This document shows, piece after piece, positions 21,623 to 26,217 of a stretch of DNA of 26,604 bases. The stretch's first letter is position 1. Each line of letters opens with the position of its first letter. The translations under genes and the position numbers were made by a program. Under the pieces are notes generated by a model. It was given only the letters and a program-made list of their open reading frames with translations, did not search any database and was not told where the DNA came from. Source of the stretch: a virus; IMG/VR virus record IMGVR_UViG_3300039188_000010, positions 1-26,604 of that record. One strand, 5' to 3'.

Positions 21623-22573
21623 ATGGCAAAAATAGACAGATTCGATGGCAACGTGAAGGCGTTTGCCAGCTCAGCAGTGGGCACTGAACGAACAGTATTC
21701 GGTGACACGTCGCAGTCGGACACCCTAGACGCCAACGTTGTGGCAGACTTTTTTCGGGGCTGGGGCATTACCGGGCCTGCCTTCAACCCAACAAAGCAAG
21801 ACTTTAACGGGCTGGCGTTTACTCTTGGCCAGCTTATTGCTTACCTGCATCAGCAGGGCATACCGGAGTGGAACACCTCTCAGGAATATTACAGAGGTTC
21901 GGTAGTAACTACCTTAGCGGGAATTTACCGGCTAAAAAATGGCGGCAATGCAACTGTAGATCCAGACAACGACAACGGCACAAACTGGGAGCTTGCACCT
22001 ACTCGGGCTCAGGTGGACGCTAAAGCAAACCAAGCCACGACCTACACCGAGACGGAAGTTGATGGCCTACTTGACGACAAGGCGGACAAGGCCACAACCT
22101 ACACAGAGACGGAAGTTGACAATCTTCTTGACGCTAAAGCTGATCAAGCCACAACCTACACTGAAACAGAAGTTGACAGCCTTCTTAATGCCAAGGCAAA
22201 TCTATCAGGAGCTACGTTTGCGGGGAACATATCCGCCACAAACCTAAGCGGAACAAACACTGGTGATCAAACGCTAAATGAAATTGGCGTTGGGCAGACT
22301 TGGCAAAATGTAAAAAGTAGTCGGTCACTTGGTATAAACTACACAAATTCAACCGGAAAACCTATATCCGTTTCAGTATCTAGCGTCGGCAACGCAAGCA
22401 CGATAGGCCTAAAGTTGATTGTGGACGGGGTGAGCGTCGTGGAGAATTTTGTAAGCAGTACCGGCAGCGGCCAAAAGTACGTTATAGTTTCAGCAATTGT
22501 GCCAAATGGAGCGGTATACAAAGTTAATCAAATAAATTCTGTTTATATTGGTGAATGGGCTGAACTTAGATAA
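21623..22573 (+). CDS. Tail fibre protein with 19-residue tandem repeats
   Basis: A 316-residue receptor-binding fibre. The N-terminal part (about 1-130) probably attaches to the baseplate. Three tandem 19-residue units of the type ATTYTETEVDxLL follow (residues 135-191), likely a trimeric coiled-coil shaft. After GNISATNLSGTNTGDQTLNEIGVG comes a β-rich tip (QTWQNVKSSRSLGINYTNSTGKPISVSVS), a motif seen in many phage fibres. GGGAG lies 8 bases before ATG 21623. No catalytic residues are evident, so it is a binding fibre. The tip is the likely site of host-range change. Confidence 0.85.
   Translation: MAKIDRFDGNVKAFASSAVGTERTVFGDTSQSDTLDANVVADFFRGWGITGPAFNPTKQDFNGLAFTLGQLIAYLHQQGIPEWNTSQEYYRGSVVTTLAGIYRLKNGGNATVDPDNDNGTNWELAPTRAQVDAKANQATTYTETEVDGLLDDKADKATTYTETEVDNLLDAKADQATTYTETEVDSLLNAKANLSGATFAGNISATNLSGTNTGDQTLNEIGVGQTWQNVKSSRSLGINYTNSTGKPISVSVSSVGNASTIGLKLIVDGVSVVENFVSSTGSGQKYVIVSAIVPNGAVYKVNQINSVYIGEWAELR
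22025..22195 (+). repeat. Three 57-bp in-frame repeats in the tail fibre gene
   Basis: Units at 22025-22081, 22082-22138 and 22139-22195 encode 19 residues each with a shared ATTYTETEVD core. Synonymous differences are present in each copy. Such arrays change copy number readily and can lengthen or shorten a fibre shaft. Confidence 0.9.
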
Positions 22574-22581
22574 GGATAAAT

Positions 22582-23046
22582 ATGAAAAATTACACTGATC
22601 CAGATACAAAAGAGATTTACGCATACGAATCTGACGGCTCACAAGACGAATTTATCAAAGAAAACTTGGTTGCCATCAGTGATGAGGACTTGGCTATTCT
22701 GAGAGCGCCAACGCCTGAGCAATTGGTCGCACAGCTATCAGCCGCCCGCAAAGCACAGGAGCGGCAAGGCGTAACATTAAACGGCATCCGCTACGCAGGC
22801 GACCCCGGCAACCGCCAAGCGCTGCAAGAGGCGATCGCGTTTATGGACAACGCGGGCCTAACCGAGTTTTCAAATTGGAAGTGTTCAGACGACGAGTTTC
22901 ACTTCGATCACCCGCTGGCCGATGTGTTTGACGCATACCGCGCCGTAGGGATGCGCAGAGTCGCGCTAATTGCAGCCGAGGGCGAGTACGCTGCACAGAT
23001 TACGGCAGGCACGCTAACGGACTTAAGCGAGGTTGTATGGCCATGA
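22582..23046 (+). CDS. Tail fibre-associated protein (DUF4376-like)
   Basis: A 154-residue protein placed directly after the fibre. The second half (KAQERQGVTLNGIRYAGDPGNRQALQEAIAFMDNAGLTEFSNWKCSDDEF) fits the DUF4376 domain common in tail fibre assembly or fibre-tip proteins. The first half is acidic and could be the attachment part. AAGGAT precedes ATG 22582. Its role is likely fibre folding or attachment. Its stop overlaps the start of the PagL-like gene. Confidence 0.75.
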   Translation: MKNYTDPDTKEIYAYESDGSQDEFIKENLVAISDEDLAILRAPTPEQLVAQLSAARKAQERQGVTLNGIRYAGDPGNRQALQEAIAFMDNAGLTEFSNWKCSDDEFHFDHPLADVFDAYRAVGMRRVALIAAEGEYAAQITAGTLTDLSEVVWP

Positions 23047-23519
23047 ACAAAACCAGAATAGCAGTAGCGCTTTTTGTCGTAATACTCATCGCAGCCGGAT
23101 ACGCCGCAACAGCCCGCGCCGACACCGTCAACATCGGCTTGGGCAAATCAATCCTAAATTCTTCGGCCACTGTTGGCGAAATCGGATACGAGCGCAACGG
23201 CTGGGAAGTGCAGGCCACGTTGATGGGTGCAGGTGACACAAAGAACGGGCATCAGGATCAGATGTCTATCTACTCAGTGTCGTACATTACGCGCCCTGGC
23301 TGGGGCTATAAAGGTGCAGAGCCATACGTCCGGCTCGGGGTCAGCCACAACACTGGCAGCACGCTGATCGGCTCTAGCAACTTCCGGCTAGGCTTGGGCG
23401 TTGAATTTAGCAAAGTGTTCCGGCTTGAGTATGTGCACCATAGCAGCGCAGGAATACATGATCCGAATACGGGGCTTGATTACGTAGCGTTGAGTTACGT
23501 TATGCCAGCGCCTTGGTAA
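23043..23519 (+). CDS. PagL-like lipid A 3-O-deacylase (acyloxyacyl hydrolase)
   Basis: A 158-residue protein with a signal peptide (basic MNKTR, hydrophobic core to about 24, ARA cleavage near 26) and a small β-barrel. The C-terminus FRLGLGVEFSKVFRLEYVHHSSAG continues with IHDPNTGLDYVALSYVM, close to the PagL active-site region. Pseudomonas PagL uses His126, Ser128 and Glu140. Here H132 and S134 keep the HxS pair, and D146 stands at the Glu position with the same 14-residue spacing. It would sit in the outer membrane and trim lipid A. The start overlaps the preceding stop (ATGA at 23043); ATG 23037 is an alternative. It follows the fibre-associated gene and precedes the amidase. Confidence 0.78.
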   Translation: MNKTRIAVALFVVILIAAGYAATARADTVNIGLGKSILNSSATVGEIGYERNGWEVQATLMGAGDTKNGHQDQMSIYSVSYITRPGWGYKGAEPYVRLGVSHNTGSTLIGSSNFRLGLGVEFSKVFRLEYVHHSSAGIHDPNTGLDYVALSYVMPAPW

Positions 23520-23535: not shown

Positions 23536-23964
23536 ATGAAAATCAGCAAAGTAATCATCCACGCAGCAGACACCCCGGCAAGCATGGACGTGGGTGCAGC
23601 AGAGATACGCCGCTGGCACGTTGATGGCAATGGCTGGTCAGATATAGGCTATCACTACGTTGTACGGCGCAGCGGGCTTGTGGAGACTGGCCGTGACCTG
23701 GATGGCGACGGCGACATAGAGGAGGAAGTAGGCGCTCACGTTTACGGCCACAACCGGGGCACGCTGGGGATTTGTATGGTGGGCGGCAAACCTGGCTGTA
23801 ATTTCACCTCGGCGCAATGGCGCGGCCTTTCGTTTCTTGTCACTGACATCTGCAAGCGGCACGGCTTAACGGCTGCTTACGTGTACGGACACCGCGACTT
23901 TGACAGCGGCAAGACCTGCCCTACGTTTGACGCCCACGCATGGGCGACCACACTGGATCTATGA
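23536..23964 (+). CDS. Endolysin: T7 lysozyme-type N-acetylmuramoyl-L-alanine amidase
   Basis: A 142-residue Amidase_2/PGRP-fold zinc enzyme that cleaves the amide between MurNAc and the peptide stem. Zinc ligands can be matched to T7 lysozyme: H9 (VIIHAADTP), H119 (YGHRDF) and C128 (GKTCPTFDA), with Y41 and K126 as likely catalytic partners. A short Asp-rich insert (DLDGDGDIEEE) at 54-64 is a possible cation-binding loop. There is no signal peptide, so the holins must release it. AGGAG lies 8 bases before ATG 23536. Confidence 0.92.
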   Translation: MKISKVIIHAADTPASMDVGAAEIRRWHVDGNGWSDIGYHYVVRRSGLVETGRDLDGDGDIEEEVGAHVYGHNRGTLGICMVGGKPGCNFTSAQWRGLSFLVTDICKRHGLTAAYVYGHRDFDSGKTCPTFDAHAWATTLDL

Positions 23965-23965
23965 C

Positions 23966-24454
23966 ATGAGTGCATGGGACAAAATCAAAGACGTTGTGGG
24001 CAATGTTGCACCCGTGGCAGGCTCTTTGCTTGCCGGGCCTGCCGGTGGTGCCATAGGCGCTATGCTGGCCAGTGCGCTCGGCGTAGACAGCACACCGGAC
24101 GCCGTAGCCGCGGCAATAAAGTCTGACCCAATGGCCGCTGTCAAGATACGGCAGATTGAGGCACAGCTGGAGCAGACTCGGCTCGAAGTTCGCGGGCAGG
24201 CTGTGCAGGCAGAGGCAAAGGGCGATTCATGGCTGCAACGCAACTGGCGACCTTTGACTATGGTGTGGTTTAGCTTTCTGGTCGGTGCATACTGGTTTGG
24301 CTACACACCTGAGAACTTGTCAGAGGAAGCCATACTGTCTTTGTTCGGGCTGATTAAGCTGGGCCTTGGTGGTTATGTGATTGGGCGCAGTGCGGAAAAG
24401 ATCACAAAGGAAATCAGCGGGTCTGGTTTGCTTGGAAAGATTCTTGGCAAGTGA
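23966..24454 (+). CDS. Holin-like protein (GTA-type 3TM family)
   Basis: This 162-residue protein fits the 'holin of 3 TMs' gene-transfer release family: a Gly/Ala-rich N-terminal hydrophobic region (VAPVAGSLLAGPAGGAIGAMLASALG), a helical charged middle (IRQIEAQLEQTRLEV), an RNWRPLTMVWFSFLVGAYWFG membrane segment, and a C-terminal one (ILSLFGLIKLGLGGYVIGRSAEK). It follows the amidase by one base. It would form the membrane lesion that frees the endolysin. ATG 23966 is preferred to a longer frame reaching back into the amidase gene. Confidence 0.82.
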   Translation: MSAWDKIKDVVGNVAPVAGSLLAGPAGGAIGAMLASALGVDSTPDAVAAAIKSDPMAAVKIRQIEAQLEQTRLEVRGQAVQAEAKGDSWLQRNWRPLTMVWFSFLVGAYWFGYTPENLSEEAILSLFGLIKLGLGGYVIGRSAEKITKEISGSGLLGKILGK

Positions 24455-24502: not shown

Positions 24503-24772
24503 ATGACTCTAAAGACTGTAGTAGAAAGCGCCCCAAGTGCTTTGAAGCCAGACTCGATTGCAGCCAGCTCGACATATCTGACAAACGGAATAGTATTTAC
24601 ATGGGGCGCGATGACAGTTAACGAGGTAATGATGATGATTGCCACCGGATTTGGTGTAGCCACTTTCTTTGTCAACCTGCACTTTCAAAAGAAACGCGAA
24701 AAGAGAGATCAGGAGCTGCACGAAATCCGCAAGCAACCCCCCACCCCCTGCTCTAATCCGCCGACTCAGTAG
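24503..24772 (+). CDS. Second holin-like protein (HP1-type, one main TM)
   Basis: An 89-residue protein: polar N-terminus, hydrophobic segment (roughly 41-58, VNEVMMMIATGFGVATFF), then a strongly charged tail (HFQKKREKRDQELHEIRK) and a Pro-rich end. The GxxTFFVNxxFxxKR pattern fits HP1-family holins. It could alternatively be an antiholin for the upstream 3TM protein. The start ATG 24503 has no strong Shine-Dalgarno. Its stop overlaps the convergent minus-strand gene by seven bases. Confidence 0.68.
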   Translation: MTLKTVVESAPSALKPDSIAASSTYLTNGIVFTWGAMTVNEVMMMIATGFGVATFFVNLHFQKKREKRDQELHEIRKQPPTPCSNPPTQ

Positions 24773-25194
24773 TACGCCACGAACGGCCCTGGCGATGGCG
24801 TGAGCGGCTTTGTGTAGATCCTGTGATACCCGTCAGAGTAAGGCAGATCAACGCTCACAGGTGCATCCACACGATGCTGTGCCCACAGCTTCTCGACGTT
24901 ACGTGGTGACCGTTTCATATCTTCGCCAATTTGCTTTGATTTGTCCTGCAATATGAGCGCGTCTAATTTCACGCCGTATTGATGCTCTGCCCGGACCTTT
25001 TCCACGATCTCTGCGTCTATGCTGTTGGTCTTGAAGCCTTTGGCTAAGTAGTTGACAGTACTGGCCGCTACGTCGTAACGAGCACCAATCATCACCATCG
25101 TGTAATTCTTGCGCTCAATCTTTAGCGCATCCCGTTGCTTGTACCGGCGTAGGATTTCTTCGATTTCGCGTTTAGTGGCTGGCTTGTTTCTCAT
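24766..25194 (-). CDS. Hypothetical protein with HTH-like N-terminus
   Basis: A 142-residue basic protein. The first 55 residues are helical (ATKREIEEILRRYKQRDALKIERK) and include YTMVMIGARYDVAASTVNYLAKGF, which resembles a helix-turn-helix. The C-terminal part is loosely structured, Pro-rich. It is the last gene of a four-gene minus-strand operon and overlaps the upstream gene by ATGA. It may bind DNA; no named family recognised. Its 3' end overlaps the converging lysis gene by seven bases. Confidence 0.68.
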   Translation of the reverse strand: MRNKPATKREIEEILRRYKQRDALKIERKNYTMVMIGARYDVAASTVNYLAKGFKTNSIDAEIVEKVRAEHQYGVKLDALILQDKSKQIGEDMKRSPRNVEKLWAQHRVDAPVSVDLPYSDGYHRIYTKPLTPSPGPFVAYY

Positions 25195-25691
25195 GACTTC
25201 TGCTCCTGCTTAATGGCCAAACTGCAAAGTTTAATGGCGATGCGGCCAAGCTCTGCTCCAGCTTGCCGAATATCCTCAAAAGGTGTTCCAATGTCATCCT
25301 CTGCTGACCGGGCAATAAACGCAGCTTTGTTTATTGCGATTGATTGCAGGTCACACCAGCCGCACGGGTATGGACATTCTGTCACATCTTCGCTAAGCCA
25401 AGTACACCGGCCCATATCAGTCACCGCACAAACTCTGCCGTCCTGGTTCTGCGCCAGTACGCCAATGAAGGGGCCAATCTGTGCGGCTTTGCGCTGGCCG
25501 ATGCTGGGGCGGCTCTCACCCTCAAGCGCCTGGCGGCTGGCTTGCCATGCCCTCCATGATGACTCTGCCGCCTTTGTTGCGTAAGTCCATTCATTATGGC
25601 CCGACGGACTAACTAGCGATAAATCTATCCATCCTGCAAAATTCTTCATCTTGGATGCCGCCCACTTTTCAAATGCTTCTCTGCTATCCAT
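25191..25691 (-). CDS. Hypothetical phage protein with W-x-x-W core and Cys motif
   Basis: A 166-residue protein. Its opening (SREAFEKWAASKMKNF, then ESSWRAWQASRQ) is the start often found in unnamed phage early proteins. The middle has a Cys cluster (VCAVTDMGRCTW, then ECPYPCGWC), which may bind metal. It begins at TAATG overlapping the upstream stop and ends in ATGA with the next gene. Function unknown; early accessory genes of this kind are common in temperate phages. Confidence 0.7.
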   Translation of the reverse strand: MDSREAFEKWAASKMKNFAGWIDLSLVSPSGHNEWTYATKAAESSWRAWQASRQALEGESRPSIGQRKAAQIGPFIGVLAQNQDGRVCAVTDMGRCTWLSEDVTECPYPCGWCDLQSIAINKAAFIARSAEDDIGTPFEDIRQAGAELGRIAIKLCSLAIKQEQKS

Positions 25692-26023
25692 TAAAAATTC
25701 TCCCGCTGATACTCGTCAATCTCTTTGCCGCTCATACTGTCAGCTAGCGCGACAAACTTATCGGTCAGCCAATCGCGCCAGGTTTCGGCCATGTCATAGT
25801 CAGGGTCTGTCATCGCCGAGAACAGGTAGTCTTCAAGCTGCGTGCTTTCTTCACCTAGCCATTCTGCGGCCTGCCAGCTTAGTTTGTGATTGTCTTCCGT
25901 GTACTCTTGCATAAGCATTTCTGCAAAGTCCTCGCGGTACTTTTCCAGAGCCGCTTCTTCGTCTGCCTGCTGGTCAATTATGCGCTGGTGGTGGTCCATG
26001 GCTTGCGTGTTGTAGTCGGTCAT
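25691..26023 (-). CDS. Small acidic hypothetical protein
   Basis: This 110-residue protein is highly acidic and Trp-containing (EEAALEKYREDFAEMLMQEYTEDNHKLSWQAAEWLGEE; MAETWRDWLTDKF). It looks helical throughout, without membrane segments. Start ATG 26023 is preferred to GTG 26029: GGAG lies 7 bases before the ATG, and it overlaps the upstream stop as ATGA. A DNA-mimic or inhibitor role is possible for such acidic phage proteins but not supported by a motif. Unknown family. Confidence 0.68.
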   Translation of the reverse strand: MTDYNTQAMDHHQRIIDQQADEEAALEKYREDFAEMLMQEYTEDNHKLSWQAAEWLGEESTQLEDYLFSAMTDPDYDMAETWRDWLTDKFVALADSMSGKEIDEYQRENF

Positions 26024-26217
26024 TTGCACTCTCCATATCCGTCAAGTTTTGGCCAGCCGTATTTTGAATCAGTGGCCTTGAATATTGCCCGCATTTCGCA
26101 GTAATGATCTTGCACCGCCGCCTGATTTTCGTTGGCATCTGTCGCGCTTAAGATCAGAGCGATAAAGATGACGCAGGCAAGAATGCTGATTGCGGGTACT
26201 GGCTGTATGTTTGTCAT
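26020..26217 (-). CDS. Small membrane-anchored protein, two Cys
   Basis: A 65-residue protein with one N-terminal hydrophobic segment (SILACVIFIALILSA, residues 10-24) and a short outside domain with YCEMRAIFKATDSKYGWPKLDGYGECK; the Cys pair could form a disulphide in the periplasm. Small phage proteins with a closing YCEM...GWP...C pattern recur next to early genes, function unknown. It is the first gene of the minus-strand operon; AAGGAG lies about 10 bases before ATG 26217, and a promoter lies just upstream. Confidence 0.66.
   Translation of the reverse strand: MTNIQPVPAISILACVIFIALILSATDANENQAAVQDHYCEMRAIFKATDSKYGWPKLDGYGECK

Follow-up and report, generated by a model that had tools for sequence, protein, structure and literature searches.

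A gene for a PagL-like lipid A deacylase lies directly before the endolysin gene of a viral contig from a metagenome, and the locus raises the question of what such an enzyme would do for a phage and at which point of infection it would act. The window, meaning the whole IMG/VR record that we analyzed (26,604 bases, linear and incomplete), carries head, contractile-tail and lysis genes on its + strand, and this series ends in the order fibre, DUF4376, PagL-like, Amidase_2 endolysin and two holin-like genes, so that an endolysin does adjoin the PagL-like ORF, as the initial annotation had it. The C-terminus of the tail fibre is related to the fibres of other phages that carry PagL or the partner protein described below. 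The fibre also contains tandem repeats of the form TTYTETEVDxLLDxKADKA (21990-22200) whose DNA recurs in T7-like and T4-like fibres and whose number varies among relatives. The endolysin site is itself variable in close relatives, with an Amidase_2 protein in the window, an amidase in L011, and a different protein, M15-peptidase-like as judged by eye, in L012, L022 and L077. Four small genes on the - strand (24766-26217) follow the lysis cassette in an order that is at least partly kept in relatives, and none could be assigned to a family except for one matching phrog_343. A small cationic ORF at 24669-24803 was weighed as a candidate disruptin but discarded, as it overlaps the holin-like gene out of frame and has no support.

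Table 1 Features of the PagL-like locus and its neighbours in the window.
Feature	Position	Strand	Basis
Tail-fibre gene with repeated segment	21623..22573	+	ORF; repeats common to T7-like and T4-like loci
DUF4376 gene, tail-fibre chaperone type	22582..23046	+	PF14301 E 2.3e-11; stop overlaps PagL start (ATGA)
PagL-like lipid A 3-O-deacylase homologue	23043..23519	+	158 aa; Pfam PF09411; 2erv match; AF2 8-strand outer-membrane barrel (predicted)
Signal peptide MNKTRIAVALFVVILIAAGYAATARA (predicted)	23043..23120	+	Sequence; hydrophobic segment 6-23; N-terminal helix in model
Active-site motif H132-x-S134 ... D146 (HHSSAGIHDPNTGLD)	23436..23480	+	Aligned to H, S and E of PagL
Endolysin, Amidase_2	23536..23964	+	PF01510 E 1.6e-17; phrog_822 E 5.3e-46
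Holin-like protein	23966..24454	+	phrog_3427 holin E 1.6e-19; PF11351 (GTA_holin_3TM) 21.4 bits, below cut-off 24.8
Second holin-like protein, superfamily II type	24503..24772	+	phrog_20 E 5.7e-11; PF16082 27.9 bits, below 30

The assignment of the gene to the PagL family is supported, as are the outer-membrane location of its product, its motif and its position beside the endolysin. The longest form of the ORF (23037-23519) would encode 160 residues; the start at 23043 is the better one, its ATG sharing the sequence ATGA with the stop codon of the preceding gene. The PagL profile PF09411 matches the ORF with an E-value of 6.7e-8 and 33.2 bits against a curated cut-off of 23, which 18 of the 21 searched records pass, and the nearest solved structure by sequence is Pseudomonas aeruginosa PagL (2erv), in which HYSNAGLKQPNDGIE aligns with HHSSAGIHDPNTGLD at an overall identity of ~17-18%. 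The extended PagL motif is present in just one of the 106 window ORFs of at least 60 residues, the PagL-like ORF itself, and appeared once in 200,000 shuffles of the protein. Additionally, dN/dS against close relatives is 0.07-0.08, and the protein is thus under purifying selection. An AF2 model computed with 18 phage sequences as input (pLDDT 82) contains eight main strands and an N-terminal helix, and a Foldseek search of the PDB with this model returns 2erv first (E 2.6e-5, TM 0.52). As this TM is moderate and other eight-strand barrels rank closely after 2erv, the fold alone is insufficient for a PagL identity, and it is the profile and the motif that carry the assignment. Cleavage of the signal peptide is predicted before D27, and its conservation (0.69) is about equal to that of the mature part (0.75).

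The active site gives a clear picture of what the phage proteins keep and what they change. H132, S134 and D146, numbered on the 158-residue form, are invariant in 18 phage homologues, 17 of them other than the window protein and 51-96% identical to it, and the +2 and +14 spacings are exactly those of PagL, which confirms the H-x-S pair and acidic residue that had been recognized at this numbering from the outset. The PN-segment Asn and the motif Gly are as strictly kept as the His, Ser and Asp. The initial annotation had also singled out the Asp as a replacement of Glu; the Asp is indeed present, but there is nothing unusual about it. In a comparison set of six PagL homologues from plasmids, the +14 residue is Glu in two Stutzerimonas proteins, Asp in those from two Pseudoalteromonas and a Shewanella (L174, L175 and L177) and Asn in that from Cupriavidus. 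Since marine cellular homologues carry it too, Asp at this position is ordinary variation within the family, and the proposal that it marks a dead enzyme is rejected. What sets the phage clade apart is instead the residue after the catalytic Ser, which is Asn in 2erv and all six plasmid homologues, Ser in 18 of 18 phage homologues as well as in G016, and Thr in a divergent protein from contig L130. We count this as a point of difference that does not place the phage proteins outside the family, as six homologues and 2erv do not establish that the Asn is essential.

The PagL gene is an accessory insertion between the DUF4376 chaperone gene and the endolysin. Five siblings of the window phage (L077, L078, L081, L088 and L092), with 82-92% holin identity across the aligned portion, have no PagL at the site. 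In most of them the stop codon of DUF4376 and the start codon of the endolysin gene overlap within GGTTGTATGGCCATGA or a sequence almost the same, at the junction where PagL begins in the window. The gene is found in ~25 IMG/VR contigs that differ widely in type: window-type phages, T7-like contigs with T7-type holin or terminase genes adjoining (L018 and L026), T4-like contigs of 42-138 kb (L023-L025 and L028) and tRNA-flanked contigs (L044-L047). The T7-like and T4-like labels are our reading of neighbouring genes, and the PagL-carrying related records are all metagenomic viral contigs, mostly fragments. A pattern scan found no close relative in the cellular genome collection, and a tblastn search of a cultured phage collection of 50,697 records returned no match. 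The gene upstream of PagL is DUF4376 or tail-fibre-assembly-like in window-type phages, the T7-like L018 and L026, the T4-like L023 and L025, L032 and G016, with some of these matches falling below the curated cut-off. At the DNA level, the DUF4376/PagL segment of the window is 72% identical to that of the T7-like L018 over 778 bases, and its DUF4376 DNA is 78% identical to that of the T4-like L025. A DUF4376 protein, gp27 of Alteromonas phage V22, is a demonstrated tail-fibre chaperone (PMC7289586), and fibre/chaperone modules are swapped across unrelated phage families by the V22/A5 Alteromonas phages (PMC10579305). Taken together with the shared DNA, this indicates that PagL travels with an exchangeable block of a type already known.

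For the activity of the phage protein, its timing and its benefit, we infer the following sequence of events. The protein would be translated in a manner coupled to the DUF4376 gene, as an accessory gene at the end of an exchangeable tail-fibre/chaperone block, exported by its signal peptide, and folded into the outer membrane of the host as an eight-strand barrel. There its His-Ser-Asp site would remove an acyl chain from outer-leaflet lipid A late in infection, and the deacylated lipid A would loosen and curve the outer membrane around lysis, which we take to be the most likely benefit. PagL is known to remove the 3-O acyl chain of lipid A, and in Salmonella an active PagL raises vesiculation ~4-fold while a His/Ser mutant does not, with the deacylated lipid A leaving in the vesicles (PMC4958258). 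Our favoured reading, which we hold tentatively and at a little under even probability, is that the phage enzyme assists the other lysis proteins in this way rather than serving as a spanin. A late, lysis-time role is consistent with the same-strand late region and the ATGA coupling, and lysis genes lie directly downstream of PagL in window-type phages, L018, L032, G015 and G016. Against it, there is no lysis gene near PagL in the T4-like and tRNA-flanked contexts (L020-25, L028 and L044-47), and in G009 the spanin lies 43 kb away. Furthermore, vesiculation in Salmonella came without an envelope stress response (PMC4958258), and PagL may therefore be too mild for an effect at lysis. The initial annotation had also raised expression in lysogens and a dampening of host-immune sensing; no phage integrase was found in the 23 records searched, so a prophage, lysogen or host-immune role is unsupported, and the window phage is probably lytic.

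At many PagL loci the next gene, which often overlaps PagL (ATGGTAA), encodes a protein of 74-81 residues that has a single N-terminal helix and the conserved tail PADxSNRINHFRLVWFALTRE...FPWLKNDE. This partner has no convincing match in Pfam or PHROG and was not found in the cellular collection by pattern scan. Its family spans 73 viral loci, most of them without this PagL and one in the Xanthomonas phage LucasX (LUCX_160). As an additional observation, the family includes single-helix membrane proteins of 74-90 residues with the SNRINHFRLVWFALTRE motif (L013:6471-6695, L031:6477-6722, L055:5001-5225 and ~70 other viral loci). In phages without PagL the partner is often near endolysins and holins; among 97 sampled proteins neighbouring it, the commonest PHROG matches are endolysins, peptidases and related lysis families, each with small counts. 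Contig L130 has a divergent PagL (18.1 bits, under the cut-off, with Asp at +14) that lies together with the partner between an M15-type endolysin and a gene that reads by eye as holin-like. The partner is absent in the window, L011, L012 and L027; the window phage has lost this gene. It is conceivable, although on balance we think it unlikely, that PagL and a single-helix inner-membrane partner form a mobile two-gene envelope-remodelling system, swapped between unrelated phages along with the tail-fibre chaperone block and targeting the envelope of the host as infection ends, of which the window phage would keep the outer-membrane half only. In a separate arrangement, L165 (2543-3004) and the Acidovorax phages ACPWH, ACF1 and ACP17 encode an HHSC (H-x-S) protein with a predicted signal anchor, possibly a second barrel family, which in L165 directly follows a tail-fibre-assembly-like gene and precedes the partner.

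The lysis-gene neighbours and the partner favour a role at lysis, while the link to the fibre chaperone favours an effect on re-adsorption or superinfection, and we regard these two readings as near even. On the latter, the outer leaflet of the LPS would be changed or shed as vesicles, such that the dying cell no longer binds progeny virions and shuts out related phages, and the gene would travel with the fibre/chaperone block because its product acts on the receptor of the fibre. The recurrent chaperone-type gene upstream of PagL, the DUF4376/PagL DNA common to window-type and T7-like phages, the DUF4376 DNA shared with T4-like phages as well, and the module swapping of the Alteromonas phages all fit this account, and phage changes to LPS with exclusion are known for O-antigen (PMC11436027). 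However, the acyl chains of lipid A lie buried, and removal of the 3-O chain makes no direct change to O-antigen or core. The position of the gene may also be hitchhiking, as fibre neighbours are exchange hot spots, and the L130 PagL sits within a lysis cassette and lacks a neighbouring chaperone gene. We consider an action at the cell surface possible but somewhat doubtful.

A further reading is that the protein is a PagL-shaped barrel that has lost the reaction or changed it, acting on another lipid or serving as a pore or a binding protein. The replacement of Asn by Ser or Thr beside the nucleophile in every phage member is in line with this, as are the moderate fold match and the closeness of other eight-strand barrels, and catalysis could differ from that of cellular PagL given this replacement. 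The strict retention of the His, Ser, Asp, PN-segment Asn and motif Gly under purifying selection argues the other way, and we judge a lost or altered reaction improbable.

The initial annotation had found no spanin in the lysis cassette and had seen in PagL a possible stand-in. Our scan used a relaxed lipobox filter, the stricter version of which misses an Rz1 control, and it recovered the Rz1 proteins of G015, G016 and KLEP17-4 as positive controls; the Rz/Rz1 profiles are loose and match control bacteria too, and a spanin was therefore called only for an adjacent pair or for a lipobox protein of suitable architecture. The absence holds beyond the cassette: the scan of both window strands found no lipobox ORF, and the Rz/Rz1 profiles matched nothing in the window, in G000-G006 or in the 44-kb G012. 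The lipobox scan also found none in the PagL-like signal peptide, and the model is a beta barrel; the protein thus lacks the build of a spanin (a lipobox lipoprotein and/or an inner-membrane anchor with a periplasmic domain). Elsewhere, PagL and spanins coexist in five phages. The cassette of G016 runs PagL, small membrane protein, SLT-like endolysin, Rz and Rz1, and that of G015 PagL, partner, membrane protein, Rz and Rz1; G009 has an Rz/Rz1 pair in addition to its distant PagL; G033 has an Rz1-like lipoprotein ~2 kb downstream of PagL; and the T7-like L026 (G032) has an apparent unimolecular spanin (L026:3971-4336, lipobox LAAC and a C-terminal TM), the gene for which follows that of the large terminase. 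The PagL-less siblings, which are fragments with the same cassette, show lipobox matches at chance level only. PagL thus occurs in phages with spanins too, and within the window clade its presence does not track the loss of a spanin. That PagL takes over the outer-membrane step of lysis from the spanin, which would suit its place directly before the endolysin and the lack of a match in the window and in seven related records, the 44-kb one included, is rejected as a general role and is highly improbable here, since PagL coexists with spanins in these five phages and PagL-less siblings show no spanin either; moreover, ~13% of such phages are without identifiable spanins anyway, as Kongari et al. 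(2018) are cited in a passage of PMC12819732.

No description of a phage PagL was found in the literature that we searched. If the enzyme is active, lytic phages remodel the lipid A of their hosts in the course of infection, which would bear on how the outer membrane fails in spanin-less phages and on the LPS of phage-released lysates and vesicles in nature. The module of PagL and its partner offers a direct genetic test.

Among known systems, Rz/Rz1 and unimolecular spanins resemble the phage PagL as envelope proteins encoded beside an endolysin, but PagL lacks the lipobox, coiled-coil or C-terminal TM, is predicted to be a barrel with an esterase-like site, and co-occurs with spanins in other phages. 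The host-recognition modules of the Alteromonas phages V22, A5 and P24 likewise place a DUF4376 chaperone block in unrelated virion types, although no PagL is known there, as judged by the tblastn search of the phage collection. The prophage-borne LpxR of pathogenic E. coli (PF09982) is also a phage-associated outer-membrane lipid A deacylase (PMC13192938), but it belongs to a different family and is found in prophages beside the antitermination gene Q, whereas no integrase was found with the phage PagL. There is also a likeness to P. aeruginosa PagL itself (2erv; PF09411), with which the phage protein shares a predicted eight-strand barrel, a signal peptide, the H-x-S pair, the acidic residue at +14 and the PN-x-G segment; it differs in its low sequence identity, in having Asp for Glu and Ser/Thr for the Asn after the nucleophile, and in being encoded by phages, in a tail-fibre chaperone or lysis neighbourhood.
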